A stretch of DNA of 64,000 nucleotides from Tabrizicola sp. TH137 (GTDB lineage: Bacteria; Pseudomonadota; Alphaproteobacteria; Rhodobacterales; Rhodobacteraceae): positions 62,001 to 126,000 of the forward strand of contig NZ_PKRQ01000002.1 of the NCBI RefSeq assembly GCF_002855575.1, in the 5' to 3' direction. Of this stretch, positions 5,669-35,660 are shown piece by piece. The stretch's first letter is position 1. Every line of letters starts with the position of its first letter. The notes beneath the pieces were generated by a model. The model was not told where the DNA came from and made no database searches. It saw nothing but the letters and a program-made list of their open reading frames with translations. Both the position numbers and the translations under genes were made by a program.

Positions 5669-6722
5669 GGAAAAGATGATGACCGCCGCTTGTGCGGCGG
5701 CGGCCCTGACCATGGGCCTTGCCGCATCGACGGCACTTGCCGAAACGCCGTCCTGGTGCGGGCCCAATGAGGCTTCGCTGGCGCTGCTGGACGGGTTCGG
5801 CGGCAATAGCTGGCGGCTTGTCACGACGGCCTCGGGTGCGGAGGAAGCCGCGAAATGCCCCAGCATCACGCAGTATGAATATGCCGACGGGCAGGGCGAC
5901 ACCCAGAAGGCCATTTCGGACATCAATTCCATGGCGGCGCGCGGCATCAACGCGATGGTGGTCTTCGGGGATGCGGGGCCTGCGGTCCTGCCCGCGCTGA
6001 CCAACGCCCATCGCGCCGGAACCATCGTCGTGCCCTACCGCGTGAATGTCGGTGGCGAGGAAGGCGTGAACTACGCCAAATTCATCGGATCGTCCTTCTT
6101 CGAGGATGGCGTGAGCTGGGGCAACTGGATCAAGGAGATCCTGCCCGAAGGTGGGAACCTGCTGTTCCTCAGCGGACCGGCCGGCAACAGCCAGGGCATT
6201 GACGAGCTTGCCGGCATGAAATCCGTGCTGGATGACAAATACGTTTTCATCAACCCGGAGCCCTTCGCCGTCACCAACTGGGACCCGTCGCTGACGCAGC
6301 AGGTGCTTTCTGCCGAGATTGCCAAGAATGACAAGATTGACGTGATCGTGTCGGACTTCGGCCCGTCGCTGGTTGGCGCGCTGCCTGTCTTTGCGGAGTT
6401 CGGCCGGTCCATCCCGGCGCTGGCGACGTCGGACGGCAATTCGCTGTCCTGCTTCTGGGAGCAGAACAAGGAGGCGAACCCGGACTTCAAGCTGTTTACC
6501 GTCGCCACGGGGAACGACAATGTCCGCCTTGCAGTGCAATGGGCCGTGGCCCTTGCCACCGGGGGCACCCCGCCTGCGGAAGAAATCTTCAAGGCGCCGG
6601 TCTTCGAGAACTCGGTCACAGGCGAGCCGAACCCCGTGACCTGCCGCCCCGATCTGCCCGGCTCCATCTATCTGTCGGCGGAAATGGCCGATGATGCGCA
6701 GGCGAAAGCCGTCGGCCAGTGA
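5661..6722 (+). CDS. Periplasmic sugar-binding protein of the ABC importer
   Basis: 353 aa. An N-terminal signal peptide (basic start, hydrophobic stretch, ALA-E cleavage at about residue 25) precedes a type I periplasmic-binding fold of the ribose-binding class. Visible pieces are LLDGFGGNSWRL, DTQKAISDINSMAARGINAM and VSDFGPSLVGAL. The ATG at 5661 has GGAGG at 5647-5651. It overlaps the permease gene and is followed by the ATPase-permease gene, so all three importer parts are co-transcribed. Ligand unknown. Confidence 0.88.
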   Translation: MLKEKMMTAACAAAALTMGLAASTALAETPSWCGPNEASLALLDGFGGNSWRLVTTASGAEEAAKCPSITQYEYADGQGDTQKAISDINSMAARGINAMVVFGDAGPAVLPALTNAHRAGTIVVPYRVNVGGEEGVNYAKFIGSSFFEDGVSWGNWIKEILPEGGNLLFLSGPAGNSQGIDELAGMKSVLDDKYVFINPEPFAVTNWDPSLTQQVLSAEIAKNDKIDVIVSDFGPSLVGALPVFAEFGRSIPALATSDGNSLSCFWEQNKEANPDFKLFTVATGNDNVRLAVQWAVALATGGTPPAEEIFKAPVFENSVTGEPNPVTCRPDLPGSIYLSAEMADDAQAKAVGQ

Positions 6723-6798: not shown

Positions 6799-9330
6799 AT
6801 GCCCGAGGTCGCAGCGATGAAGCGCATGGAAACGGAAGAGTTGACCGTTGCGGTCACGGCCAGGCCGGCTGTCCGGCTGTCCAACATCACCAAGCTGTTC
6901 TCTGGCGTCGTGGCCTTGTCGGATGTGTCGGTGGAGATTCATCCCGGCGAAGTCCATGCCATACTTGGCGAGAACGGCGCGGGCAAATCCACGCTGATGA
7001 ACATCATCTCGGGCGTGCTTCAGCCGGATATCGGCGTGATCGAATTCAACGGCGAGGTCATCTCGCCGATGACGCCAGAGCGCGCCGCCGCGCTGGGCGT
7101 ATCCATATCGTATCAGCATCCGGCTGTGCTGGATGATCTGTCGGTGCTTGAAAATCTGCGCGTGGCCTTGCCCGATCGCGTCTTCGACGGCGATGACCCG
7201 GCCATCATCGCCCGCCGGATGCTGGATGACGTGGGGCTGCATGTGCCGCTGACTGCGCGGGCAGATGGCCTGACGGTGGCGCAGAAACATCTGCTGGAGA
7301 TTGCCAAGGCGCTGGCGACACGCCCCCCGGTTCTGATCCTCGACGAGCCTACGGCGGCTTTGGATCAGGATGCGACCGAGATGCTTTTCGCCCGCATCCG
7401 GACTGTCGTGGCGCAGGGGACGGCGGTCATCTACATCACCCACAGACTGGCCGAACTGCGCCAGATCGCCCAGCGCGTGACCGTGCTGCGCGACGGCCAT
7501 CATGCGGGCAGCGCTCTGGTCCGCGATGTGACGGATGATGATCTTCTTGCCATGATCGTCGGGCGCAGTCTTGCATCCGCCTTTCCGCCCAAGTCGGCGG
7601 AGGCAGCGCCGGAGACCAATTTCATTGTCAGGAACCTCACGGGCCGATCCTTCCGCGATGTCAGCTTTGAGGTCGGACGTGGCCAGATAATCGGGATTGC
7701 AGGCGTCGAGGGCAACGGCCAGTCCGGCGTCATGCGTGCCCTCGCCGGGCTGGAAGCCTGGAAGGGCGACGTGACCCTGAACGGCATCTCGCTCTCTTCG
7801 GCGGAGGTGAAGGAAAAGTCGGCCTATATGCCGTCGGACCGCCATGAAGAGGGGATCATTGCCGACCTGACGGTGCGGGAGAACGCGACCTTTTCGGCGC
7901 TGGACCAGTTCAGCACGCTCGGCATCCTGAGCCGCCGCCGGGAACTGGGCGAAGTGCGGCAGGTGTTCGGTTCTCTTGCCGTGAAGGCGCCGGGGCTGGA
8001 TGCGGGCATCCTGTCCCTTTCGGGCGGCAACCAGCAGAAGGTGGTGATGGCGCGGGCGCTGATGTCGCAGCCGGGCTTCATTCTGGCCGATGAACCGACA
8101 CAGGGCGTGGATGTCGGCGCGCGGTTCGAGATCTATCGCATCCTGCGCGAGGTTTCGCAGGCCGGGACGCCTGTCATCGTGAATTCTTCGGACGCGGCAG
8201 AGCTTGAAGGGCTGTGCGACGTCGTGATCGTGATGTCGCGCGGGCGCGTTGCGGAAACCCTGCGGGGCGACGAGGTGACGGAAAGCCGCATCATCGCGGC
8301 GGCGGTCAAGGCGCAGTCGCATGTCGCGGGACTCGAGGCGGCAACGAAGGCGACGCAATCCGCCGGTCGCGGGCTGCGCCAGTTCATCCAGAGCGACAAT
8401 GCCACCGTGGCGCCGCTTGCCGCCGTCGTGGTGCTGCTGGGGCTCTATGTCTTCGGGCAGAACGAGAATTTTCTGTCGGCCTTCAACATCTCGAACATCC
8501 TGCTTCTGGCGACCGCGCTCGGCTTTATCGCGATTGGCCAGACCATTGCCCTGCTGATGGGCGGGATCGACCTTTCGGTGGGTCCACTGGCCGGTTTCCT
8601 TGTGGTCGTGGCCTCTTTCTTCATCAATGACGGACAGTCGCCGCAGACGATCGCATTGGGTTTCGCATTGATGTTCCTGGCCGCGCTGGTGGTCGGAGCG
8701 ATCAACGGCTGCCTGATCCGCTTTGCCAATTTCACGCCGATTGCCGCGACGCTGGCCATGTATATCGGCTTGCAGGGACTGAGCTTCGTGCTGCGCGACG
8801 GGCCGGGGGGATATATCAACTTTGCGGTGATGGATGCGATCGGCTGGAAGCTCGGGCCCTTGCCCTTGGCCTTCATCGTTCTGGTCCTGGTGGCGCTGCT
8901 GGCCGAATACATGCTGCGCAGGCGCCGCCTTGGATGGCAGTTGCGGGCCGTCGGGTCGCATGAGGAATCGGCGCGGCGGATGGGCATCCGGGTGAACCGG
9001 GTGGTCATTGGCGGATATATCGCCGTGGCGCTGTTCACGGCGCTGGGGGCCGTCATGCTCATGGTGCAGATCGGCGTGGGCGATCCGGCGCAGGGCGTGA
9101 ACTATACGCTGGCCAGCATCACCGCCGTCGTTCTGGGCGGAACCAGCCTGCGTGGCGGGCGAGGCACGTTCGTCGGCACTGTCATGGGTGCCGTTCTGCT
9201 GACCGAAGTGCTGAATGCCGTGGCCTTCCTGGGGCTGTCGCAGACCTATCAATACCTGTTCCAGGGGGCGCTGATCCTTGCTGCCGCTCTGATCTATTCG
9301 ACGGCACGGCGGCAGGCGGGTCACGGCTGA
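6799..9330 (+). CDS. Fused sugar ABC transporter: double ATPase plus permease
   Basis: About 843 aa. Residues about 25-265: first ATPase, Walker A GENGAGKSTLMN, degenerate signature LTVAQKHLLEIAKAL, Walker B ILDEPTAALD. Residues about 270-500: second ATPase with degenerate Walker A GVEGNGQSGVMRAL, canonical LSGGNQQKVVMARAL and ADEPTQGVDVGAR. Residues about 535-843: a complete ribose-type permease with ALGFIAIGQTIALLMGGIDL and VLGGTSLRGGRGTF. In RbsA/RbsC systems these are separate proteins. I see no frameshift or stop at the junction. Start uncertain: ATG at 6799, or ATG at 6817 with a GAGG box at 6805-6808. Confidence 0.88.
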   Translation: MPEVAAMKRMETEELTVAVTARPAVRLSNITKLFSGVVALSDVSVEIHPGEVHAILGENGAGKSTLMNIISGVLQPDIGVIEFNGEVISPMTPERAAALGVSISYQHPAVLDDLSVLENLRVALPDRVFDGDDPAIIARRMLDDVGLHVPLTARADGLTVAQKHLLEIAKALATRPPVLILDEPTAALDQDATEMLFARIRTVVAQGTAVIYITHRLAELRQIAQRVTVLRDGHHAGSALVRDVTDDDLLAMIVGRSLASAFPPKSAEAAPETNFIVRNLTGRSFRDVSFEVGRGQIIGIAGVEGNGQSGVMRALAGLEAWKGDVTLNGISLSSAEVKEKSAYMPSDRHEEGIIADLTVRENATFSALDQFSTLGILSRRRELGEVRQVFGSLAVKAPGLDAGILSLSGGNQQKVVMARALMSQPGFILADEPTQGVDVGARFEIYRILREVSQAGTPVIVNSSDAAELEGLCDVVIVMSRGRVAETLRGDEVTESRIIAAAVKAQSHVAGLEAATKATQSAGRGLRQFIQSDNATVAPLAAVVVLLGLYVFGQNENFLSAFNISNILLLATALGFIAIGQTIALLMGGIDLSVGPLAGFLVVVASFFINDGQSPQTIALGFALMFLAALVVGAINGCLIRFANFTPIAATLAMYIGLQGLSFVLRDGPGGYINFAVMDAIGWKLGPLPLAFIVLVLVALLAEYMLRRRRLGWQLRAVGSHEESARRMGIRVNRVVIGGYIAVALFTALGAVMLMVQIGVGDPAQGVNYTLASITAVVLGGTSLRGGRGTFVGTVMGAVLLTEVLNAVAFLGLSQTYQYLFQGALILAAALIYSTARRQAGHG

Positions 9331-12215: not shown

Positions 12216-12548
12216 ATGCCGAATGTGAAAATCTATGTCGATGAAGCGATCTATCCCGCCTGCCGCGAAGGGCTGCCCGCTGCGCTTGGCCCGATCCTCG
12301 ACATGTTATGCGAGGATCTTGTCGTGGACCGGCCTGCCTGCCAGATCGCCGTGATTCCGGTGCTCGCCTTGCCTGACCTTCCCCCGGTCAATGTGGAATT
12401 GCAGATCATGCCGCGCCCGGAGCGCACCCGCGCGGCGCTGCTGGCCCTTTGTGCGAAGCTGCGCGACGTGGTGGGCGCAGCAACCGGAGGCCATGTCGCC
12501 GTCCGGATTTCGACGCTCGATCCCGCAACCTATGTTGCCCTGAAATAG
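12216..12548 (+). CDS. Small tautomerase-like protein (possible 4-oxalocrotonate tautomerase superfamily)
   Basis: 110 aa. It begins MPNVKIYVDE: removal of the initiator Met would leave an N-terminal proline followed by a beta strand, the layout of 4-oxalocrotonate tautomerases, whose Pro-1 is the catalytic base. A second beta strand NVELQIMPRPERT precedes a helix LLALCAKLRDVV. This beta-alpha-beta order fits the superfamily, but I cannot confirm it. Position after a ring-cleavage dioxygenase makes an enol-keto tautomerase role sensible. Confidence 0.5.
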   Translation: MPNVKIYVDEAIYPACREGLPAALGPILDMLCEDLVVDRPACQIAVIPVLALPDLPPVNVELQIMPRPERTRAALLALCAKLRDVVGAATGGHVAVRISTLDPATYVALK

Positions 12549-12746
12549 CGGGGGGCGGATGGCAGATATCCTAGCCTGTCCCGAGGAACTTCTCGCCGTT
12601 CGGATTGTCGGAACGGCGGTGGCGAGCCGCTTCACTTGCATGGATGGACGGCAGGCTGCCACTCCCGCCCCTTCCTGGGTGAGAGACGGGCCGGCTGCAA
12701 AAGCAAAGATCAGGATCAAGCCGCAGTAACCAGGAGGAGAAACATC

Positions 12747-13265
12747 ATGGCGGAACGGGTCTATGGCATGCACCATATCGGCATCACAGTGCCCGACATC
12801 GAAGAGGGCATCCGCTTCTTCAAGGCCGTCTTCGGGGCGGTTGAGGTCTTTCGCACAGGCGCGTTCGACGTGGACGAGTCCTTCATGGAGCGCAGGCTTG
12901 GCACGCCCGCGCATACACGCATCCGCGATCTGGTGTTCTTGCGTTGCGGTGCCGGGACGAATGTGGAGCTGTTCGAATACAGTGGCGAAGACAGTTCTGC
13001 CCGCCCCCGCCGCAACTCCGAGGTCGGTGGCACGCATCTCTGTTTCGAGGTGGAGGATGTCTTCGCTTCGGTCGAGCGGCTGCGCGCAGAGGGGATCGAC
13101 TTCCTTGAGGGGCCGAACACCGTGACCGAAGGGCCTTTGGCAGGCTTCAACTGGATCTATTTCAATGCTCCCTGGGGGCAGTCGCTTGAAATCGCAAGCT
13201 TCACCTCCCTCGGCTATGAGAAAGATACGGAGGAGAGGATCTGGCGGGCCAAGCCTTCGGAGTGA
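12747..13265 (+). CDS. VOC-family (glyoxalase/dioxygenase fold) protein
   Basis: 172 aa, one vicinal-oxygen-chelate module pair. It opens MHHIGITVPDIEEGIRFF (metal His), continues with NVELFEYSG (Glu) and GGTHLCFEVEDV (His), and ends near WGQSLEIASF (Glu), consistent with two His and two Glu metal ligands. A strong AGGAGG at 12732-12737 sets the start. Likely a lyase, isomerase or extradiol-type enzyme acting on an intermediate of the operon. The preceding 198 bp (12549-12746) hold no recognisable gene. Confidence 0.75.
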   Translation: MAERVYGMHHIGITVPDIEEGIRFFKAVFGAVEVFRTGAFDVDESFMERRLGTPAHTRIRDLVFLRCGAGTNVELFEYSGEDSSARPRRNSEVGGTHLCFEVEDVFASVERLRAEGIDFLEGPNTVTEGPLAGFNWIYFNAPWGQSLEIASFTSLGYEKDTEERIWRAKPSE

Positions 13266-13612
13266 TCGGGCAAGGGGGCGTCCGGCGCTGTCGGCGACCC
13301 GCGCGCCGTCCGGCTGGGGCGAAGTCGTGTCAATCGGCAGGGCCGCCGTTGACTTCACGCATTCCAACAAGAACCTGGACGTCACGGTCCGGCAGGGCGC
13401 AGTCTGCGGCGAGTTCCATGCGCGCCTTGAGGGCCTGTTTCATCCTCTGCGTGAGCATGGTCCGGACCACGCCTGCTTTGGCCCCCGCTGAACACGGGTG
13501 ATGCCAAAGACTATTCTCTATCGGCTGGCCGCACTTGGGCAGAATCCCGGGCCGAGGAGTCGGGGCGCGGGGTTTTCCCCGCGCCCGTTGTCATGGCCCT
13601 TCCGGGCAAGCG
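13266..13612. other. Intergenic region between convergent transcription units
   Basis: About 350 bp separates the + strand catabolic operon from the - strand aldehyde dehydrogenase. No confident gene is seen. A minus-strand open stretch around 13340-13470 encodes a short basic peptide, but it has no clear ribosome binding site or recognisable family. It may be a decayed remnant. A strong GC hairpin lies at its right end. Confidence 0.5.
13563..13586 (-). terminator. GC-rich hairpin downstream of the aldehyde dehydrogenase
   Basis: Perfect inverted repeat GGGCGCGGGG / CCCCGCGCCC with a TTTT loop. It sits 26 bp beyond the stop of the minus-strand aldehyde dehydrogenase gene. No T-run follows on either strand, so it may act as an mRNA 3' stabiliser or weak terminator. 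Confidence 0.55.
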
Positions 13613-15133
13613 TCAGAAGAAGCCCAGCTTGTTCGGATTGTAGCTGACCAGCATGTTCTTGGTCTGCTGATAGTGGTCGAGCATCATCTTGTGCGTCTCG
13701 CGCCCGATCCCGGATTGCTTGTAGCCGCCGAAGGCCGCATGGGCAGGATAGGCATGGTAGTTGTTCACCCAGACGCGGCCCGCCTCGATGTTTCGGCCAA
13801 AGCGGTAGGCGCGGGTTCCGTCGCGCGTCCAGACGCCGGCGCCGAGGCCATACATCGTGTCATTGGCGATCTGGAGCGCCTCGGCTTCGTCCTTGAAAGT
13901 GGTGACAGAGACGACGGGCCCGAAGATTTCCTCCTGGAAGACCCGCATCTTGTTGTGGCCCTTCAGGATCGTGGGCTGGATGTAGAACCCCTGCGCGAGA
14001 TCGCCGTTGAACCGCGCGGCGTCGCCGCCAACCAGCACCTCTGCGCCCTCTTCGCGGCCGATGGTGAAGTAGGACATGATCTTGTCATGCTGCTGGCGGG
14101 AGGCCTGCGCCCCGACCATGGTCGCCATGTCACGCGGATCGCCCTGCTTGATCGCCTTCACCCGGGCGATGCAGCGTTCCATGAAGGCGTCATAGATGTC
14201 TTCCTGGATCAATGCGCGCGAAGGGCAGGTGCAGACCTCGCCCTGGTTGAAGGCAAAGAGGACGAAGCCTTCGACGGCCTTGTCGAGGAAGGCGTCATCG
14301 GCGGCCATCACGTCGGAGAAGAAGATGTTGGGGGACTTGCCGCCCAGTTCCAGCGTGAAGGGGATGAGGCTGGCCACCGCGCCTTCGGCCACCTTGCGGC
14401 CGGTGGCGGTGGAGCCGGTGAAGGCGATCTTGGCGATGCGGCCAGAACGGACCAGCGCGTCGCCCGCTTCGGCGCCATAGCCGTTGACGATGTTCAGGAC
14501 GCCGGGGGGCAGAAGGTCGGCGATGAGTTCCACCAATACCATGATCGCCGCGGGGGTCTGTTCCGCAGGCTTCATCACGATGCAATTGCCGGCGGCCAGG
14601 GCGGGGGCCAGTTTCCAGGCCGCCATCAGGATCGAGAAGTTCCAGGGGATGATCTGGCCGACCACGCCCAGCGGTTCGTGGAAGTGATAGGCAACGGTGT
14701 CATGGTCGATCTCGGACATCGTGCCTTCCTGGCTGCGGAGGACGCCCGCAAAATAGCGGAAATGATCCACCGAAAGCGGGATGTCGGCATTCACCGTTTC
14801 GCGGATCGGCTTGCCGTTGTCCCAGGTTTCCGCCGTGGCGATGAGTTCGAGATTCGCTTCGATCCGGTCGGCGATCTGGAGCAGGATGTTGGAACGATGC
14901 GCGGCGCTGGTCTTGCCCCAGGCATCCTTGGCGGCATGGGCAGCATCCAGCGCCAGCGCGATATCGGCGGCGTCGGAACGGGCGATCTCGCATATCTTTG
15001 CGCCGGTGATCGGGGTGATGTTGTCGAAGTAGCGCCCGTTCACCGGCGGCAGGAAGCGGCCTCCGATGAAATTGTCATAGCGGGTCTTGAAGGGCGATCC
15101 GGCAAGGCCGGTTTCCTTGGTCATCACGTTCAT
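13613..15133 (-). CDS. exaC: NAD-dependent acetaldehyde dehydrogenase, ExaC/AcoD type
   Basis: 506 aa aldehyde dehydrogenase, full length for the ExaC/AcoD subfamily. Subfamily marks recalled from known members include YGNYIGG-like YDNFIGGRF at the start, [28 protein letters not shown], the C-terminal [19 protein letters not shown] and the terminal LGFF. Active-site Glu262 (LELGGKSPN) and Cys301 ([12 protein letters not shown]) are present. It oxidises acetaldehyde or other short aldehydes to acids. A GAF-Fis regulator gene lies upstream on the same strand and a perfect palindrome lies in its promoter region. Confidence 0.85.
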
Positions 15134-28201: not shown

Positions 28202-28285
28202 GTGCAGGACGCATCGCGTCGGTTGAACAGCGGTGCAAGTCCGGGGCAGGGGGCAGGGCATCCGGCTTGACCCTGACTTGTGATG

Positions 28286-28296
28286 AGGTCATACCA
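28286..28296. promoter_or_regulatory. Possible FadR/GntR operator upstream of the RuBisCO-like gene
   Basis: AGGTCATACCA differs by one base from the FadR-family operator form TGGT-N3-ACCA. It lies between the GntR gene and the RuBisCO-like gene, about 190 bp before the latter. The rest of the 285-bp gap holds no recognisable gene. Confidence 0.4.
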
Positions 28297-28486
28297 GTTG
28301 CTGATCGACGCCCTGCAACATGGCGATCCAGTCCGGTTTCCTGATCCTTGCGAAAGGGTCGTTGCGGTGCGTCTTCAGTCGGGACGCAGACACCGAAAGC
28401 ATCGGGTGGCTCTCATTGTTGCACGCGGCAGGAAGATAGCCGCCTTGCGACCAGCAATCGCCTGGCGGCTGCGGAGGGAATGGACC

Positions 28487-29734
28487 ATGTCTGCACGGTT
28501 TGAAGCCGACTACATTCTTGAGACGGCGCTGCCTTTCGAGAAGGCAGCCGCGACAATTGCTGGGGAGCAATCCTCGGGCACCTTCATGGCAGTTCCCGGC
28601 GAGACGGAGGCGTTGAAGGCCCGCTCTGCCGCCAGGGTCGAGCGGATCGCGGATCTGGGTGCCCTGGCCGGCCCGGCCCTGCCGGGGGCCGCCGCCCGGG
28701 ACAAGTCGCATCGGCGTGCCCGGATCACCATTTCGTGGCCGCTGGCGAATACCGGGCCTAGCCTGCCCAATATCCTGGCCACAGTGGCGGGCAATCTTTT
28801 CGAGTTGAACTGCGTGGCAGGGCTTCGGCTGACCGATCTGCGCCTCCCGCCGGAACTCGTGGCGGCATCGCCGCGTCCCTCCTTCGGGGTGGACGGAACC
28901 CGCAGGCTTTCGGGGGTGGAAGGGCGGCCCATGATCGGCACGATCATCAAGCCTTCCATCGGTCTTAGCCCGGAAGAAACCGCTGCCATGGTGGACATGC
29001 TCTGCACGGCCGGGATCGACTTCATCAAGGATGACGAATTGCAGGCCGATGGGGCGGTCTGCCCCTTCGAGGCGCGGGTGCGGGCCGTGATGCCCGTGAT
29101 CCGGCGCCATGCCGAGCGGACCGGGCGAAAGGTCATGTATGCCTTCAACCTGACCGGAGAGGTGGACGAGATGCGGGCGCGCCACGATCTCGTGCTGTCG
29201 GAAGGCGGCACCTGCATCATGGCCAGCGCGAATTCGATCGGGCTTACGGGGATGCTGGCGCTGCGCCGCCATGCGCAATTGCCGATCCATCTGCATCGAA
29301 ACGGCTGGGGTTATCTGTCCCGGCATCCCGCGCTGGGTTTCGACTATCCGGCCTGGTCAAAGTTGTGGCGGCTGGCCGGAGCCGATCACATGCATGTCAA
29401 CGGCCTGAACAACAAGTTCTGCGAGTCGGACGAAAGCGTCATCGCGTCGGCGCGGTCACTGCTGACGCCGATGACGTCGGAAAATCCCGCGATCACCATG
29501 CCGGTCTTTTCCTCGGGCCAGACGGCGCTTCAGGCCTTCGGCACATGGCAGGTCTTGCGGCGCGCGGACCTGATCTTTGCGGCAGGTGGCGGCATCATGG
29601 CCCATCCCGACGGGCCGGCGGCAGGGGTGCGGTCGATACAGGATGCCTGGGCCGCCGCCATGGCGGGGCTGACGCTGGAGCAGGCGGTGGGCGATAGTCC
29701 GGCCCTTGCAGCGGCGCTGCGCACCTTTGGCTGA
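28487..29734 (+). CDS. RuBisCO-like protein (form IV)
   Basis: 415 aa RuBisCO large-chain homologue; the ATG at 28487 has a GGAGGGAA box. Retained active-site equivalents: Lys155 (GTIIKPSIGL, RuBisCO K175), carbamylated-Lys position Lys181 with Asp183-Glu184 (FIKDDE), His270-Arg271 and Lys310. Changed: the second Lys of KPK is Ser157, and the SGG phosphate loop reads SSGQT. These changes rule out bona fide CO2 fixation. RuBisCO-like proteins act as enolases, isomerases or, in apiose catabolism, transcarboxylase/decarboxylases; which applies here is unknown. Confidence 0.85.
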   Translation: MSARFEADYILETALPFEKAAATIAGEQSSGTFMAVPGETEALKARSAARVERIADLGALAGPALPGAAARDKSHRRARITISWPLANTGPSLPNILATVAGNLFELNCVAGLRLTDLRLPPELVAASPRPSFGVDGTRRLSGVEGRPMIGTIIKPSIGLSPEETAAMVDMLCTAGIDFIKDDELQADGAVCPFEARVRAVMPVIRRHAERTGRKVMYAFNLTGEVDEMRARHDLVLSEGGTCIMASANSIGLTGMLALRRHAQLPIHLHRNGWGYLSRHPALGFDYPAWSKLWRLAGADHMHVNGLNNKFCESDESVIASARSLLTPMTSENPAITMPVFSSGQTALQAFGTWQVLRRADLIFAAGGGIMAHPDGPAAGVRSIQDAWAAAMAGLTLEQAVGDSPALAAALRTFG

Positions 29735-29785: not shown

Positions 29786-31450
29786 CTAGTCCTCGGCCGA
29801 GAAGAGCAGGAAGCCCCGAAGTGTTTCCAACGCCTGGCCGTTCCTGTCGCGCAGGATGCTGTCGCGCGGGTGCCAGTCGCCACCTTCCTGCCGAAGCAGG
29901 GACCCATCCTCGCCCAGCATCAGGCCGACGATGGTGTCAGCGATGATCCGGCTGGCCGTCGGGCCGACCCTTGCACCGCGCTCGAGGGCCTTTGACTCAC
30001 ACAGCATGTATAGCCAGGCGGGCATTTCTTCCAGCATACCCAGCGCCTCGGCGGCGGCGAGGGGCGAGGGGAAATCCCCGCTGGGTGACACGTGACGCGG
30101 CAAGGCAGCGCGGAGCTGGTCGCGGTCCAGGACCGGCACGCCGCAGGCTTCGGCCAGCTTCTGGCCAAAGGGAATGCGGCGGTGGAAACCGCGCAGAAGG
30201 TTGCGAAACAGGATCGAGCCATGTTCGGCCACCGTCGCATCGCCCGCGACATTCAGCATGTCTGGCGCGAAGCTCAGGTCGATCCGCTCCGCCCCCCCAT
30301 GACCGGAGCGTCGCCCGAGGTTGCGCCCTGACGTCATCCGATCCCAGTCTATCACCCAATGGTCGGGCACCTGTCGCGCGGGGCCGTCGAGATGGCCCAT
30401 GTTCTGGGCCGAGGTGAAGCGGAACAATTCGGTCAGCGACGCCGCACGCGCAATCCGCCCACCGACGCCGAAATTCGCATTGAAGTCATAGGCCCGGCCC
30501 ACCATCGAATGGCCGAAACGGAAAGCCGCGGTGGTGAATTCCATTGGCACGGCGCGGGAAGCGCCCCCCCGAGGCTGCCATTCGGACAACGGGCGCCTCA
30601 GGACCGAGCGGGACAGAAGGCGTGGCAGGAAATCGTTCAGGATCAGCCAGTGATAATGCCAGGTCACCAACTGCCGCGCGGCGCGGAAACAGGCCGGGCC
30701 GCGCCCCAGCTTTGGTTGAAGTGCCGCGACGGCCCGGTTGTGGACGCGCAGGAAGGCGAGGTGAAGCTGCGAGAGGATCAGGTTCCCGTCATTGCGCCGG
30801 TCTGCAATCAGCGCGGCGCGTCCCCGGCGGGGCAGATCGGGTGCGCCCGTCGCATGGATGATCGTCTCCGGGTCGAGGTCGATGTCGGAAAACTCCTGCT
30901 TTGATGGCACCGCCGTCCGCGCAAGGCGGAAGCGCATCCCGTCAGCCTTGTAGAGGGCGGCAATGTCGGGATCGTCGGTATCGGGCCAGTCGCCATAGAG
31001 ACTGGCCAGCATCAGCGGGTTACCCTGTTCGTTCAGGATGCGCGCAAGGATGGTGGCGCGATCCGCGCGCCAGGTCTTGCCCAGGCCGGGCGGGTCGGCT
31101 GTTCCGATGACGCCTGCGGGCGGTATCGCCTCCGGATCTTCCACGATGCCGCCGATGGGGGCCGAAATGTCATGATTCAGGAACTGGCCGAAATAGGTGT
31201 AGGCGGCAGGCAGGCGCATGAGCAGTGCCGCAGGTGGCGTGAGGGGCAGGCGGGTTGCCTCTTCGAACTCCTTCAGGCGGGCGATGGTTCCGGCCTCGTC
31301 CGTCCCTGCAAAGCACCCTGCCATGGGATCATCGGCAAGGTCGGGAAAAAGATAGCGATACTGCGACCTCAATCTGGGCGGTCCGGCCACCGGGGGCGGC
31401 GTGAAGGATGCCGACTCGCTCAGGTCGTGCGCGCTGCGAATCAAGACCAT
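29786..31450 (-). CDS. Animal-type heme peroxidase (peroxidase-cyclooxygenase superfamily)
   Basis: 554 aa from the ATG at 31450 (an ATG at 31501 would overlap the YcaO stop). Family marks: distal His in YFGQFLNHDIS, catalytic Arg region LHLAFLRVHNRAV followed by QLVTWHYHWLILNDFLPRLL, and proximal His in TAAFRFGHSMVGR. In myeloperoxidase the residue before the distal His is an Asp that bonds covalently to heme; here it is Asn, so heme attachment should differ. No signal peptide is seen, so it is probably cytosolic. It lies 16 bp after the YcaO gene and would be co-transcribed, suggesting an oxidative tailoring or defence role. Confidence 0.85.
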   Translation of the reverse strand: MVLIRSAHDLSESASFTPPPVAGPPRLRSQYRYLFPDLADDPMAGCFAGTDEAGTIARLKEFEEATRLPLTPPAALLMRLPAAYTYFGQFLNHDISAPIGGIVEDPEAIPPAGVIGTADPPGLGKTWRADRATILARILNEQGNPLMLASLYGDWPDTDDPDIAALYKADGMRFRLARTAVPSKQEFSDIDLDPETIIHATGAPDLPRRGRAALIADRRNDGNLILSQLHLAFLRVHNRAVAALQPKLGRGPACFRAARQLVTWHYHWLILNDFLPRLLSRSVLRRPLSEWQPRGGASRAVPMEFTTAAFRFGHSMVGRAYDFNANFGVGGRIARAASLTELFRFTSAQNMGHLDGPARQVPDHWVIDWDRMTSGRNLGRRSGHGGAERIDLSFAPDMLNVAGDATVAEHGSILFRNLLRGFHRRIPFGQKLAEACGVPVLDRDQLRAALPRHVSPSGDFPSPLAAAEALGMLEEMPAWLYMLCESKALERGARVGPTASRIIADTIVGLMLGEDGSLLRQEGGDWHPRDSILRDRNGQALETLRGFLLFSAED

Positions 31451-31466
31451 CGGGATATGTCCGCTG

Positions 31467-32534
31467 TCAGAAGGGTTCGGGAAAATGCGGATGCGCCGCA
31501 TCGGGGCAGAGCCTGCGGAAACGGTCCGTCCCGATCCGACCGCCCATAGCGCAGAGGCCGGGGACCAGCACCCTGAGGCTGGGCAACGGGTCTTCGGGCA
31601 GGGTCAGGTCGAAGGTCAGAACGCGGTGACCCATGGCCCCGAGGCGTTCCAGCAGATCGCCTCCGTGCAGATGGCCCGCGGCGGCCTTTTCTCCAACCGG
31701 TTGGAATGCAGGCTGGCTGATCCGCCCCTGGGCTGCCCAAGCCACCGCCTCTGGGTCGGATTGAGCCAGAGCCTCTTCGAGGCTGACTTCGGTTTGCACC
31801 AGTTCCGTCACGGCAGCGAGGGCGGCATCCGCCAGATGGGGGCGTGATGCGGTCCCCATGGCCACACGGCCGCCATCGGCGTCACAGGATACGGCCGCCA
31901 CGACGGGAAGGCCGATATCGCTCGTCAGATCGAGGAACCGCGTGCGCCGCATCCGCTGTTCCAGCCACCATCCCAGTCGGGGATGATGGGCGTCGATGAT
32001 ATCCTGCGGCAGGGTCCCGGGTGGCAGACCGCCATGCCACCACAGGGCCACAGCGTCACGTTCGATGCATTCCCATAGCGCGAGATCCGCCGCTTCGGCG
32101 CGCGTCGGCGCGACGGCGCAGCCGGTGGAATTGGCATCGTTGACCAGCCGTTCGCCCAGGACCACCGCACAGTCCAGAAAGACGTCCTGAGCGGGCACCT
32201 GCACTTCTTCACCCGTCGCCAGATCCGTGCAGGTCACGACGGCAAGGTCAGCGATCCGGGGGCATTGCCCGAGCATGGCCCGATGCGACTGCGCGAGGCT
32301 GGCCCGCAGTTCGATCGCCTCCGCCCCCGCGGACAGCATCGCCTGTTGCAACGTCAGGCCCCGCCCGGCAGGCAGACGCGGTTTCAGCCCCGTCACCCCT
32401 TCCGCCGTGGGCCAGGCCACGGCCAGAAAGACCGGCGTGTCGGGCGTGTACATCGGCATCAGCCGGAAGTCCGTGGCAAGCGCCCGGTTGAGCAGGGTGA
32501 TCATGTCGTCATGCTTCATCATCATGGTCCGCAT
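31467..32534 (-). CDS. YcaO-domain ATP-dependent cyclodehydratase-like enzyme
   Basis: About 355 aa. All three YcaO ATP-binding motifs are readable: SxxxExxE (SAGAEAIE, residues 68-75), the NSTGCAVAP segment with EAADLALWECIERDA (135-161), and ExxQ (TELVQ, 243-247). The C-terminus HPHFPEPF resembles the proline-rich tail of azoline-forming YcaOs. YcaO enzymes phosphorylate a peptide amide to install azolines, thioamides or amidines in RiPPs. No fused or adjacent E1/ocin-ThiF or TfuA partner is visible. Start uncertain: ATGs at 32579, 32534 and 32525-32519; 32534 keeps the SARP-like repeats in the promoter. Divergent from the NHLP-like gene. Confidence 0.85.
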   Translation of the reverse strand: MRTMMMKHDDMITLLNRALATDFRLMPMYTPDTPVFLAVAWPTAEGVTGLKPRLPAGRGLTLQQAMLSAGAEAIELRASLAQSHRAMLGQCPRIADLAVVTCTDLATGEEVQVPAQDVFLDCAVVLGERLVNDANSTGCAVAPTRAEAADLALWECIERDAVALWWHGGLPPGTLPQDIIDAHHPRLGWWLEQRMRRTRFLDLTSDIGLPVVAAVSCDADGGRVAMGTASRPHLADAALAAVTELVQTEVSLEEALAQSDPEAVAWAAQGRISQPAFQPVGEKAAAGHLHGGDLLERLGAMGHRVLTFDLTLPEDPLPSLRVLVPGLCAMGGRIGTDRFRRLCPDAAHPHFPEPF

Positions 32535-32589
32535 TGGACGACTGTCCCGAAGTCCGATCAAGCCGCCATTGCGGACCATCGCAGCCGGT

Positions 32590-32608
32590 TTCACGCTGGC
32601 TTCACGCA
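32590..32608. promoter_or_regulatory. Direct repeats TTCACGC at 11-bp spacing (probable SARP operator)
   Basis: Two heptamers TTCACGC at 32590-32596 and 32601-32607 are exactly 11 bp apart, in the gap between the divergent YcaO and NHLP-like genes. SARP regulators bind heptameric direct repeats 11 or 22 bp apart near the -10 element. The same heptamer recurs upstream of the small secreted protein and the SARP gene itself. Confidence 0.7.
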
Positions 32609-32686
32609 AGCCCCGCTCTGATGGCCACAAGGGCGCAGGATGGACCCGTCGCAACGATACCCGCAACCGGACAGGAAGGATGAAGC

Positions 32687-33067
32687 ATGGTCGGTTTCTT
32701 CAATCTCAAGAGCGGCAACCTTGCCGATCAGCGCAAGACGGGCGAGGCGATCATGCGCCTCAGCCAGAGCGTCTTTCAGGATGGGCCGGAGTCGGAATGG
32801 GCCGCCTTCAGCGCAGACCCGCGCAAATGGTTGCACAAGGTCGGCTATCGCTATGACGGGCCCGGGGCGGGCGCAAATGGCCAGATTCCGGCCTCGGTGA
32901 CCATCGTCCCGGTCTATGACACGCCGACCATCATGCATGTCCGCATCCCGTGGAAGGGGTTGCTGGAAAATCCGCCTGCCGTGCAGGACGAACCCACCTA
33001 TGGCGGCGATCCGGCGAAACGGTTTCCGGTCCTGCTTGCCCGCTACTTCATGCGGCACTGCCGCTGA
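32687..33067 (+). CDS. Small protein resembling NHLP (nitrile-hydratase-like leader) RiPP precursors
   Basis: 126 aa. A helical N-terminal part ends in SADPRKWLHKVGY (residues 42-54), like the ADPxxxLxxxGY segment of nitrile hydratase alpha and NHLP leaders. Residues 76-88 read VYDTPTIMHVRIP, matching the NHLP strand DTPxxxHxxxP. A Gly/Ala-rich insert separates the two. A Gly-Gly pair at 106-107 is followed by a basic 19-residue tail (108-126) with one Cys. GGAAGGA precedes the ATG. It is divergent from YcaO/peroxidase and flanked by a SARP gene, so I propose it as the substrate peptide. A leader-like accessory protein is the alternative. Confidence 0.6.
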   Translation: MVGFFNLKSGNLADQRKTGEAIMRLSQSVFQDGPESEWAAFSADPRKWLHKVGYRYDGPGAGANGQIPASVTIVPVYDTPTIMHVRIPWKGLLENPPAVQDEPTYGGDPAKRFPVLLARYFMRHCR

Positions 33068-33080
33068 AGCTTGTGCCGCG

Positions 33081-35096
33081 TCAGCCTTGCCCGGCCATCC
33101 GCCGGGCGAGGCGCAGACCGCTGAGCAACCTGTCGCGTCCCGGACCCCAGGCGATCGGAAGGGTCGTCATCACCCACCCCTCGATGGCATCGTCCGATGC
33201 CGGGCCCTCGCCATGCCATGCCGCCGCTACCAGATCCCGGAACATGGCATAGGACCGGCCTGCTTCGTCGCTGCGCCCCAGATGCGCCCAGGCGGCCGAA
33301 GCCCAGACGCCCAGATCGGGAAAACCGTCATGGCATTTCTCGACCGCAGCGAGGGTCGCCTCGTAATCTGCTGCCATGAAATGGATGCCTGCCATATAGA
33401 CCGAGTAGTATTCGGGAAAGATGGGGTTCAGCCGCACCGCCTGCCGCGCGTAATCCAGCGCGTCATCCGTATGGCCCAGGAAGCCAAGGCCGCTTGCGGC
33501 GGCGATCAAGGTCTCGGAATCATGGGGGTTCAGGTCCACCGCCATGCGGAAATGGGTATTCGCCCGTTCCGGCGACCGCGCGATCAACCAGTTCCATGCC
33601 ATGCTGACATGACAGCGCGGATCGAACGGATCAAGCGCGAGAGCGTCCCGCGCATGGGCAAAGGCACGGGTCCGGTCCTCCTCGGCCCTCCTGTAGCCTG
33701 GGCGGACCATGCCGCGCGTGGACAGGATTTGCGCAAGGCTCGCATGGCTGCCGGCAAGGCCGGGATCAAGCGCGATGGCACGCAGGAACAACGCCTCTGC
33801 CTCGTCATCCGCTTCGGCTGACCACAGTCGCGAAAGCTGATGCCCGCGCAGCCAGAGGTCATAGGCCGCCGGGTCGCTGGCCGAACTGCGGGCATGGCGC
33901 AGGAGGGTGATGTGATTGACCTGCGAGGCGAGGTTGGCGGCCACGGCACCCGCAACCGAGGAGGAGGTCGCCTGCAACTCATCCTCTGCGGTCGGGAACA
34001 GGCCGGACCAGACTTCGCTGCCATTGCGGCAATCAATCAGGGCGACGAAAAGCTTGCCCGTCGGTGATCGCCAGTCCAGCACGCAATCCACGGCAAAATC
34101 CGCGTCGATGGCACGGCCGATGGCCGTGAAATCCACCACGCTGTCGGACTCGAACCCGATCGAGGGCCAGGGAATGACGATCCAGCAACGGAAGCGGGAC
34201 AGACAGGTCTTGGCAAGGAAGGCGAAGCCCTCGCTGAGATAGTCCTTGCTGTCATCGTGATATCTCGTCAGCGGTGGCCGGATCGTCAGGCGGGGCGGTC
34301 CACCGCGTCTCGGATTGGTTTCCGCCGCGGCAGGAGCCGGGGCCGCAGAGCGTTGTAGCGCAACCTGCCCGGACTTGATCGCCACCAGCAGCTCATTCGT
34401 CGCCTCGCTCGGCTCGCTGTCCAATTCGTCGGCCAGGGCCTGTTCCAGAAGCGAATACTGTCGCAAGGCTGCCGACTGGTCCCCCCGCAGGGCATGGAAC
34501 CGCATCAGGAACTGATGGGCCAGTTCATGGCTGGGCTCGATCCGGACCAGTTCATCCGCGATCCTTGTATCGCCGAAGGCATTGGCCGTGATCAGATGTC
34601 CGACATGATCCGTCAGCGCCATCGTGAGGGCCGAGCGGAGTTGCGACCGTTCGATTTGCAGCCAGGCCTCGAACACCGGCGCGCTGGGTTGGGAGGCGCC
34701 GAACAACTCCCCCCGCCACAGCCCCGCAGCCGTCAGAAGCGCGGCTTGGTCCGCCGCTTCGTCGCTGATCAGGGCGCGCAGGCGCAGCACATCGACAGAA
34801 AAGGCTTCGCCCCGCAGGCCGACGGTAAAGCGATCGGTGTCGATCAGCTCCGCATCGGGCTCCAGCACATCGCGGAGTTCCTTGAGGGCCTGCCGCAGGC
34901 TGCTGCGGGCCAAGGCCTCCGGCGCCGGGTCCCAGAGCAGCGAAGCCAGTTGTTCGCGGTTCAGCCGGTAACCCGGACTCAGCAGCAGAAGGCCAAGAAG
35001 ACAGCGCGCCTTGCGGGTGCGGAAGGCGATCTCCTGACCTGTCGATACCCGTACGGCGCGGACGCCGCCTAGGAGATCGACTTGAAATCGCACCAT
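33081..35096 (-). CDS. SARP-type transcriptional regulator with BTAD and C-terminal TPR domains
   Basis: 671 aa. Residues about 1-90: OmpR-like DNA-binding domain (FRTRKARCLLGLLLLSPG, LNREQLASLLW, SSLRQALKELRDVLEP). Residues 95-245: bacterial transcriptional activation domain. The middle region (VDFTAIGRAIDADFAVDC, LIDCRNGSEVWS) resembles the TolB-like part of CadC/adenylate-cyclase-type sensors. The C-terminal third is tetratricopeptide repeats (ALFLRAIALDPGLAGSHASL, HARDALALDPFDPR, FRMAVDLNPHDSETL, YARQAVRLNPIFPEYY). ATG at 35096 has a GAGG box. It converges with the NHLP-like gene (13-bp gap). Probable activator of the YcaO locus through the TTCACGC repeats. Confidence 0.85.
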   Translation of the reverse strand: MVRFQVDLLGGVRAVRVSTGQEIAFRTRKARCLLGLLLLSPGYRLNREQLASLLWDPAPEALARSSLRQALKELRDVLEPDAELIDTDRFTVGLRGEAFSVDVLRLRALISDEAADQAALLTAAGLWRGELFGASQPSAPVFEAWLQIERSQLRSALTMALTDHVGHLITANAFGDTRIADELVRIEPSHELAHQFLMRFHALRGDQSAALRQYSLLEQALADELDSEPSEATNELLVAIKSGQVALQRSAAPAPAAAETNPRRGGPPRLTIRPPLTRYHDDSKDYLSEGFAFLAKTCLSRFRCWIVIPWPSIGFESDSVVDFTAIGRAIDADFAVDCVLDWRSPTGKLFVALIDCRNGSEVWSGLFPTAEDELQATSSSVAGAVAANLASQVNHITLLRHARSSASDPAAYDLWLRGHQLSRLWSAEADDEAEALFLRAIALDPGLAGSHASLAQILSTRGMVRPGYRRAEEDRTRAFAHARDALALDPFDPRCHVSMAWNWLIARSPERANTHFRMAVDLNPHDSETLIAAASGLGFLGHTDDALDYARQAVRLNPIFPEYYSVYMAGIHFMAADYEATLAAVEKCHDGFPDLGVWASAAWAHLGRSDEAGRSYAMFRDLVAAAWHGEGPASDDAIEGWVMTTLPIAWGPGRDRLLSGLRLARRMAGQG

Positions 35097-35246
35097 GATC
35101 GGCGGCCTCGAAAACATTACCTAACGTCAAGTTGCACGTTCGGCAGGTTCCTTTCAACAAGCGATCACCAAACCGCAACGGGACGGCTCGTCCGGACGCG
35201 CGCAATCGGCTGCCGTGAAGTCTTGTCCCGCATTTCATGCCCCGGC

Positions 35247-35288
35247 TTCACGCTGCGATTACCGTTCGCTTCACGCAGCCATCACGCA
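35247..35288. promoter_or_regulatory. Array of (T)TCACGC direct repeats between the SARP gene and the secreted protein gene
   Basis: TCACGC cores start at 35248, 35271 and 35282 (spacings 23 and 11 bp), each followed by (A/T)G. A weaker TTACCG at 35259 would fill the array at about 11-bp steps. The last copy is about 67 bp before the secreted-protein start. Same heptamer as at 32590-32607. Confidence 0.65.
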
Positions 35289-35354
35289 GGCGGGGGCAAG
35301 CTGTCTTGATCCAGCCGATCACAGCATTGGCGGAGCAACAGTGGAGAGCAACTT

Positions 35355-35660
35355 ATGAAGACCAAATTCCTTTGGACGAGCATTGTCCTTGCCTGTCTTG
35401 CCGGCCCCGCGCTTGCCGATGGTGCCGTGATCGACCCCTTGTCGCAATGCCCGCTGACCGGTCCGGCCGTCGGGCAAAGCGAGGCCTGCCAGGCGCTGCG
35501 CGTGACCTTTCGTGACGGTGTCGATAGCTGCATGCAGCAACTGAAGGTCAAGGCATCGGTGAGCACCGATGACCAGTTCACACACAACTCCCACACGAAC
35601 CGGGCGCGGATGCTGATATGCGATCGGGAAGTGCGGGAAAGAATGGGTCTCGCCGACTGA
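35355..35660 (+). CDS. Small secreted four-cysteine protein, unknown function
   Basis: 101 aa. A clear signal peptide (MKTKFLW..., hydrophobic core, ALA-D cleavage at about residue 22) leaves a mature protein of about 80 residues with four cysteines: in LSQC, EAC, DSC and MLIC. Four cysteines in an exported protein suggest two disulphides. GGAG lies 9 bp before the ATG. I do not recognise the family. It shares its promoter region, including TTCACGC repeats, with the divergent SARP gene, so it is probably in the same regulon. Confidence 0.7.
   Translation: MKTKFLWTSIVLACLAGPALADGAVIDPLSQCPLTGPAVGQSEACQALRVTFRDGVDSCMQQLKVKASVSTDDQFTHNSHTNRARMLICDREVRERMGLAD

Follow-up and report, generated by a model that had tools for sequence, protein, structure and literature searches.

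The 64,000-nucleotide stretch of the Tabrizicola sp. TH137 contig NZ_PKRQ01000002.1 analyzed here (the window) carries a gene cassette in which a stand-alone YcaO enzyme lies beside an animal-type heme peroxidase, a 126-residue protein and a regulator of the Streptomyces antibiotic regulatory protein (SARP) type. The original prediction had read these genes, together with a small secreted protein, as one locus for a ribosomally synthesized and post-translationally modified peptide (RiPP), and all five predicted open reading frames (ORFs) are present where it had placed them (Table 1). A Pfam scan of eight window proteins, run on the longest frames of the peroxidase (29786-31501, minus strand) and of YcaO (31467-32666, minus strand), placed the peroxidase above the cut-off of An_peroxidase (PF03098) and recognized the regulator by its BTAD (57.1 bits, E 3.3e-15), Trans_reg_C (27.2 bits, cut-off 26.2) and TPR domains, in agreement with the families originally assigned; among these eight, neither the 126-residue nor the 101-residue secreted protein had a match. 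The 16-bp gap described between the two enzyme genes separates the YcaO stop at 31467 from the likely peroxidase ATG at 31450, and YcaO perhaps starts at a later ATG of a cluster just inside 32534. The 101-residue ORF, inspected by eye, has a signal-peptide-like start followed by four Cys, as described. The window genome holds a single match to this YcaO, and the one same-genus genome in our family sample holds none.

Table 1. Features of the cassette (window coordinates)
Feature	Position	Strand	Basis or remark
Animal-type heme peroxidase (PXD), 554 aa from likely ATG	29786..31450	(-)	Pfam An_peroxidase, E 1.1e-13
Stand-alone YcaO, ~350 aa	31467..~32534	(-)	Pfam YcaO, E 5.5e-37
-35-like element CTTGATC	32556..32562	(-)	kept as CTTGA[AT]C
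SARP-type box CGTGAAGCCAGCGTGAAA, direct repeat, 11-bp period	32589..32606	(-)	YcaO/126-aa divergent promoter
Putative NHLP-like substrate/carrier protein, 126 aa	32687..33067	(+)	divergent from YcaO; profile comparison
C-terminal tail VLLARYFMRHCR of 126-aa protein	33029..33064	(+)	ARYFMRxCR in 16/16
SARP: OmpR-type DNA-binding + BTAD + TPR regulator, 678 aa	33081..35117	(-)	Pfam
Second box CGTGATGGCTGCGTGA	35271..35286	(-)	between SARP and secreted gene
Secreted four-Cys protein, 101 aa, optional	35355..35660	(+)	clade occurrence; upstream box

We searched one genome for each of 84,980 species by pattern, using a three-member YcaO alignment (the window and loci L052 and L063) as the query. 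The search gave 59 candidate stretches and 15 confirmed loci, from Rhodobacter, Tabrizicola, Pseudorhodobacter and metagenome-assembled genomes; because L052 and L063 had contributed their YcaOs, 13 of the 15 are independent of the query. In all 15 named loci the SARP, the 126-residue protein, YcaO and the peroxidase stand in the same order and orientation (the L054 SARP and the L065 YcaO are each split into two matches, and the L057 SARP is cut by a contig end). The secreted four-Cys gene is found in five of them. The flanks vary: ten of 16 loci have a common wider neighborhood of Opp-type transporter genes, an integrase and CorC, which was not seen in the window or in five other loci, three of those five on short contigs. 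Three of 394 family genomes, counting that of the window, encode the 126-residue protein, which is 74 and 67% identical in two other genera; it is 54-75% identical to its counterparts in the 15 loci and is conserved over its whole length, the tail most of all.

Sets of a peroxidase, a YcaO and a SARP gene (triads) recur beyond the clade of the window, in 28 divergent loci over all rounds (9 + 1 + 5 + 4 + 9), their class being taken as Alphaproteobacteria after the named relatives. The genome samples were drawn evenly, not exhaustively, regions were taken mostly by score, and a few of the 28 are close kin (L170 and L179 share one genus, L183 and L184 another). Of 18 distant YcaO loci within the family, nine have a peroxidase and a SARP close by, six further matches with frames of 648-789 residues being left out, and a Mesorhizobium huakuii plasmid carries the same set, its regulator with sub-threshold TPR and DNA-binding matches only. 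At class level, where 40 of 58 listed matches (385 genomes) were taken and some loci were cut by contig ends, five were full sets and 35 were without a peroxidase. Starting from the peroxidase, 4 of 20 loci (of 36 listed matches, 398 genomes) were full sets and the other 16 had neither YcaO nor SARP; a later YcaO round gave nine full sets among 20 new loci (of 62 matches listed). Peroxidase matches on plasmids of Paracoccus yeei, Palleronia and Rhizobium sophoriradicis had no YcaO in the stretch inspected; 4 of 32 records with a match were examined, and the one with the set had been preselected by a YcaO search match. Overall, these comparisons indicate that the co-occurrence of the cassette genes is real and beyond chance. 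The single locus originally proposed is borne out for four of its five genes, which recur with their order kept in the named loci; the secreted gene is optional, and it alone fails to be co-conserved.

An EamA/DMT-type transporter gene, possibly an exporter, adjoins the SARP or the peroxidase in L054, L062, L063, L065 and L067. As a core part of the cassette this gene was rejected, because it was matched in 7 of 34 triad loci (against one of 51 other loci) and is missing from the window.

The 126-residue protein has a sole cysteine, Cys125 (codon 33059-33061), and a cysteine at the corresponding end recurs in the small proteins of the distant loci. Eight of the first nine distant loci, whose gap ORFs were viewed without a Cys filter (later loci were partly viewed through one), carry an ORF of 167-248 residues ending Cys-X in that gap beside the peroxidase. 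In the ninth, L041 (12521-14512), the peroxidase ORF continues into a carrier-like domain ending RVGDYTIAQCK (...SRVGDYTIAQCK), a fusion that we read as a natural link between peroxidase and carrier. Throughout the divergent triads, Cys lies within the last four residues of the small protein (28/28) and is mostly penultimate (25/28), and the small protein adjoins the peroxidase in 26 of the 28, the L041 fusion counted. Position by position, 16 of 19 divergent substrates have Cys at -2; the other three are L114 (-3) and the pair L102 and L105 (-4 and -1). In a background of 955 ORFs, which includes triad loci and possibly spurious ORFs, Cys stands at -2 in 24 and within the last four residues in 59; the difference between 16/19 and 24/955 at -2 has p 2e-23 if the loci are independent.

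Alignment of the 20 tails, that of the window among them, on this Cys shows three positions that are restricted throughout: L/V/I/F at -8, A or G at -7 and Y/I/H/F at -5. A regular expression combining the shared pattern with ILMTFY at -3 was derived from the positives and so shows specificity only: in non-triad loci it had no match among 813 non-overlapping ORFs with a length of 100 residues or more, nor among 3022 six-frame ORFs, compared with 21 of 565 ORFs in triad loci, where it missed L118 (Val at -3). Fixed in advance as a prediction, it matched five of nine new triads and none of 11 other new loci; of the four missed, L180 differs in a single residue (Val at -3), and the others (L182, L183 and L184) are further from the pattern. 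All nine new triads have an ORF with Cys at -2 adjoining the peroxidase. The near-terminal Cys therefore generalizes across triads, the exact tail motif only partly. Between subfamilies the carrier bodies diverge widely, and the tail persists.

The 126-residue protein had been assigned a leader of the nitrile hydratase-like leader peptide (NHLP) type, and on this point curated models and profile comparison differ. NHLP models matched none of the 16 clade members in NCBIfam or Pfam (weak unrelated matches only) and none of 10 other family substrates in NCBIfam, and a PDB sequence search with the 126-residue protein gave no useful match; nor did any hidden Markov model place it in an unrelated enzyme family. 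However, when the 16-sequence profile was compared by local hhalign with seven NHLP leaders from alphaproteobacterial genomes, collected through their match to nitrile hydratase alpha, it aligned with Prob 87 and a score of 37.5 over 43 columns (ADPR...IPASVTIVPVYDTPTIMHVRIP), the best of 60 column-shuffles scoring 22.2. The L102/L105 carriers gave Prob 85 and a score of 36.4 over 74 columns (best shuffle 15.9), and forced global alignment gave Prob 20 for the window family and 58 for L102/L105. An AlphaFold2 (AF2) model of the 126-residue protein (pLDDT 77) had no credible counterpart in the PDB: Foldseek gave one match, at E 9.2, and VIA returned none at Z of at least 2 among 10 chains. For the window protein, the leader assignment thus appears to hold by remote homology to NHLP; the family as a whole is, on these comparisons, united by its tail and not by its leader. 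The protein departs from the classic RiPP picture: there is no hypervariable core after the leader, where the tail motif is instead invariant and the most conserved part of the protein, and no Gly-Gly (GG) site. That the cassette makes a RiPP product is something we infer from sequence.

The residues E72, E75, E155 and R159 of YcaO are invariant in 13 sequences, three of them from the window clade, and we take them to be the ATP/Mg motif residues. The proline-rich tail noticed originally proved short (PHFPEPF), with PEP kept in the clade. By PDB profile the window YcaO matches TruD/LynD, and its best NCBIfam score is with the SagD-like TIGR03604, below the cut-off of that model. Pfam gave it no second domain, dedicated RiPP recognition element (RRE) models not having been run, and the general Pfam scan of the eight window proteins found nothing that matches an E1-like protein, a flavin dehydrogenase, a protease or TfuA.

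The window peroxidase matches, by phmmer against the PDB, eosinophil/myeloperoxidase. PF03098 is also above its cut-off in L182 and in 5 of 6 distant peroxidases scanned, and just under it in L041 (24.3 vs 25 bits). In 13 sequences Q89, H93, R311 and H314 are invariant and R219 is near-invariant; presumably these kept positions are the distal Gln/His, the catalytic Arg and the proximal His. Asp and Glu form covalent heme esters in mammalian peroxidases. At their places the window peroxidase has Asn and Gly (LNHD and RNDG), and it therefore probably binds heme non-covalently. No signal peptide was seen in the window peroxidase, so it is probably cytoplasmic. A structure model of the L041 fusion reached a pLDDT of 62 (33-48 in the tail), at which entry of the tail into the heme pocket, a candidate reading of the fusion, was not readable and was dropped; a fold search with the fusion ranked myelo- and lactoperoxidase at the top, none at E of 0.001 or less.

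In a careful YcaO tree, one supported branch (96/88) separated 22 triad YcaOs from 26 of the 35 class-level YcaOs without a peroxidase (solos), so that presence of a partner requires 1 change against a shuffled mean of 16. A quick tree with nine of those solos and six family YcaOs without a peroxidase required 2 changes (shuffled mean 12), because the L102/L105 YcaOs fall beside solos. In the peroxidase tree, from a quick search only, supported branches force at least 3 changes. The YcaO lineage is therefore steadier than its peroxidase partner. In L169, peroxidase genes at 7295-9034 and 13091-14857 flank one YcaO/SARP/carrier set, and the second groups with solo peroxidases.

The YcaO/126-residue intergenic region contains CGTGA-N6-CGTGAAA in 16/16 loci, and in each CTTGA[AT]C lies 32-33 bp beyond the point where the second half-site begins. 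The window box (32589-32606) was found in 0 of 100 shuffles and is the single match to CGTGA-N6-CGTGAAA in the 4.66-Mb genome. CGTGA-N6-CGTGA has just one further exact occurrence in the window (35271-35286), 69 bp before the secreted gene, which a box also precedes in L054, L059, L062 and L063, not L065 (4/5 named loci); the secreted gene is thus a probable member of the regulon. The 19 distant triads contain 18 boxes, 12 of which are 250 bp or less upstream of a triad gene, a space that makes up 5.7% of the sequence (p 1.6e-11), and they fall upstream in five triads (L042, L104, L118, L169 and L170); each of the other 14 spacers between 1 and 15 had 0 or 1 box there. In the nine later triads, a box lies 250 bp or less upstream of YcaO or the peroxidase in L179, L185 and L191. 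Of 17 distant loci examined, 13 lacked exact 6-mer repeats with an 11-bp period in the stretch before YcaO. The period of classical SARP sites is 11 bp (available parts of PMC5930380), and because an 11-bp-period direct repeat is present in 16/16 promoters, control of the cassette by the SARP through the predicted box fits the data; the SARP would then bind the box.

Taken together, the co-conservation, the shared tail with its near-terminal Cys in 28/28 triads, the L041 fusion, the box and the NHLP similarity suggest that the cassette probably carries out a SARP-controlled post-translational modification of a C-terminal Cys on a folded NHLP-like carrier. The SARP/BTAD-TPR activator would switch on synthesis of the carrier (126 residues here), whose tail ends -Cys-X, and the stand-alone YcaO would engage this protein directly. 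That YcaO and the peroxidase both act on the Cys tail is, in our judgment, very likely. The combination of a YcaO with a near-terminal Cys suggests formation of a thiazoline, YcaO activating with ATP the peptide bond just before that Cys, and a peroxidase neighboring YcaO suggests oxidation in place of a flavin enzyme: in the role of the flavin oxidase of MprC/MprD-type systems, it would then act on the ring, or on the Cys/Tyr tail, by an oxidation that probably yields a thiazole. This thiazoline-then-thiazole chemistry is a tentative assignment, with somewhat less than even chances. The modified tail might be released as a small molecule or kept as a C-terminal group; where each enzyme acts and by what chemistry, in which order the steps run and what becomes of the product are points that we infer. 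To a broader joint reading, in which YcaO and the animal-type heme peroxidase form a C-terminal heterocycle or cross-link at an encoded Cys four residues or fewer from the C terminus of a folded carrier, with cofactor-like conservation and alphaproteobacterial SARP control, we give about an even chance.

Several observations weigh against this proposal. The L102/L105 carrier sits between the SARP and YcaO and not beside the peroxidase, and the L102/L105 YcaOs are the ones that fall beside solos in the quick tree. The peroxidases of triads do not form a single lineage: in the quick tree, the window clade has its place among solos. L187, one of the 11 new loci short of a full set, has a YcaO, a SARP and a Cys-tailed 137-residue protein (...ARIGDYSVSHCQ) and no detectable peroxidase, and at the expected place of the peroxidase (12512-14281) it encodes a 589-residue protein that starts like a signal peptide and matches nothing in Pfam or the PDB, possibly a replacement enzyme; L178 and L188 have similar YcaOs and no peroxidase in the stretch examined, and L178 no SARP match. 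The tail motif set in advance appeared in only five of nine new triads, the box in only five of 19 distant ones. Five other substrate sets score 12-16 against NHLP, no better than shuffles (one of the five was compared with shuffles of its own), and no curated RiPP-precursor model matches any substrate scanned. Unlike in most RiPPs, the tail "core" is invariant within the clade; the four conserved genes include no protease or transporter; and the L041 fusion model is too poor to place the tail.

Among the alternatives, the one that fares best, although we consider it unlikely, is that the carrier is never cut and its modified C-terminal Cys serves as a permanent prosthetic group (redox-active, or metal- or heme-binding), the cassette then being a protein maturation system. 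Whole-length conservation of the 126-residue protein, with the tail most conserved, would be expected of such a protein, and the lack of a hypervariable core, of a GG site and of a protease among the four conserved genes agrees with it, as does the fusion of carrier to peroxidase in L041. However, bodies that vary between subfamilies around a persisting tail suit a scaffold for a tail-derived product, and the EamA/DMT-type transporter genes near the SARP or peroxidase of the five loci named above also speak against a carrier that is kept. Slightly less likely still is another chemistry at the tail, namely a thioamide or amidine made by YcaO and/or a Tyr-Cys cross-link or tyrosine halogenation by the peroxidase. 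The Tyr that such reactions might use stands five residues ahead of the Cys in 12/20 tails but is missing there in 8/20, whereas the Cys is missing in 0/20; and thioamides are made by YcaO-TfuA pairs (available parts of PMC8120280), but there was no TfuA among the eight window proteins scanned. An independent redox job for the peroxidase within a stress regulon, the small protein being an accessory subunit with a disulfide or regulatory thiol, is improbable. In its favor are the related peroxidases without YcaO or SARP (16/20 loci) and the L187 YcaO/SARP/Cys-tail locus without a peroxidase; against it are 28 divergent YcaO/SARP loci that have one, the clustering of triad YcaOs in both trees and the L041 peroxidase-carrier fusion.

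Next to the cassette, the window encodes at 28280-29734 a RuBisCO-like protein nearest to OiaX (NF042437, 449 bits, cut-off 700), adjoined by a GntR/NanR-type regulator gene and probably belonging to unrelated catabolism. In L038, an ORF judged by eye to be transposase-like (5678-6661) lies between the carrier and the SARP, hinting at mobility of the cassette.

Modification of a protein by way of its C-terminal cysteine has a precedent in the pearlins (3-thiaglutamate), in which a scaffold protein with a C-terminal Cys is the site of chemistry. There, the Cys is added by a ligase and the enzymes are unrelated to those of the cassette, whose Cys is encoded in the gene. Like the enzymes of TOMM/linear azol(in)e peptides of the SagD type, the cassette YcaO scores best with TIGR03604 and TruD/LynD and has a short C-terminal PEP tail; unlike them, it has no E1-like partner or flavin dehydrogenase among the neighbors scanned, and its putative substrate is a protein of ~126-248 residues instead of a Cys/Ser/Thr-rich core. 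The animal-type peroxidase fold also differs from that of heme-oxygenase-like enzymes. A heme-oxygenase-like dehydrogenating enzyme, not a peroxidase, is mentioned for thioamide clusters in the available parts of PMC8120280; the TfuA-YcaO thioamide RiPPs described there resemble the cassette in joining YcaO with accessory redox enzymes in Proteobacteria, but differ in having TfuA, which was not seen among the cassette proteins scanned. NHLP/proteusin precursors have a hypervariable core after the leader (PMC4603692, in part), whereas the cassette carrier, unlike those of NHLP azoline RiPPs, has one near-terminal Cys and neither a GG site nor a long variable core; the word peroxidase is absent from the main text of PMC4603692 on TOMM groups, as far as the parts available go. 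As had been supposed, a published pair of YcaO and heme peroxidase was not found among the search results inspected for open-licence PMC papers, subscription papers lying outside that search.

A close parallel is the MprE/MprC/MprD system, in which a folded nitrile-hydratase-like leader is the substrate of a YcaO with an oxidase partner (PMC12455567, in part). As there, the cassette YcaO is predicted to meet a folded leader by protein/protein contact and has an oxidase partner; unlike there, a heme peroxidase takes the place of the flavin oxidase, the YcaO has no second Pfam domain whereas MprC keeps an RRE (same source), and control would be by a SARP. The cassette points to an undescribed way of modifying a protein C terminus: if this is true, heme peroxidases would join the oxidases that work with YcaO enzymes, a folded carrier presenting one conserved C-terminal Cys would be a substrate type, and the tail offers a search handle for further family members. 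Finally, the promoter resembles the Streptomyces PimR operators (PMC5930380, in part) in its direct repeats in 11-bp register and its SARP regulator, and differs from them in its half-site (CGTGA vs CGGCAAG), in its alphaproteobacterial hosts and in the TPR C terminus of the regulator, which suggests that the 11-bp direct-repeat operator is retained where SARPs occur outside Actinobacteria, there with a readable CGTGA half-site.

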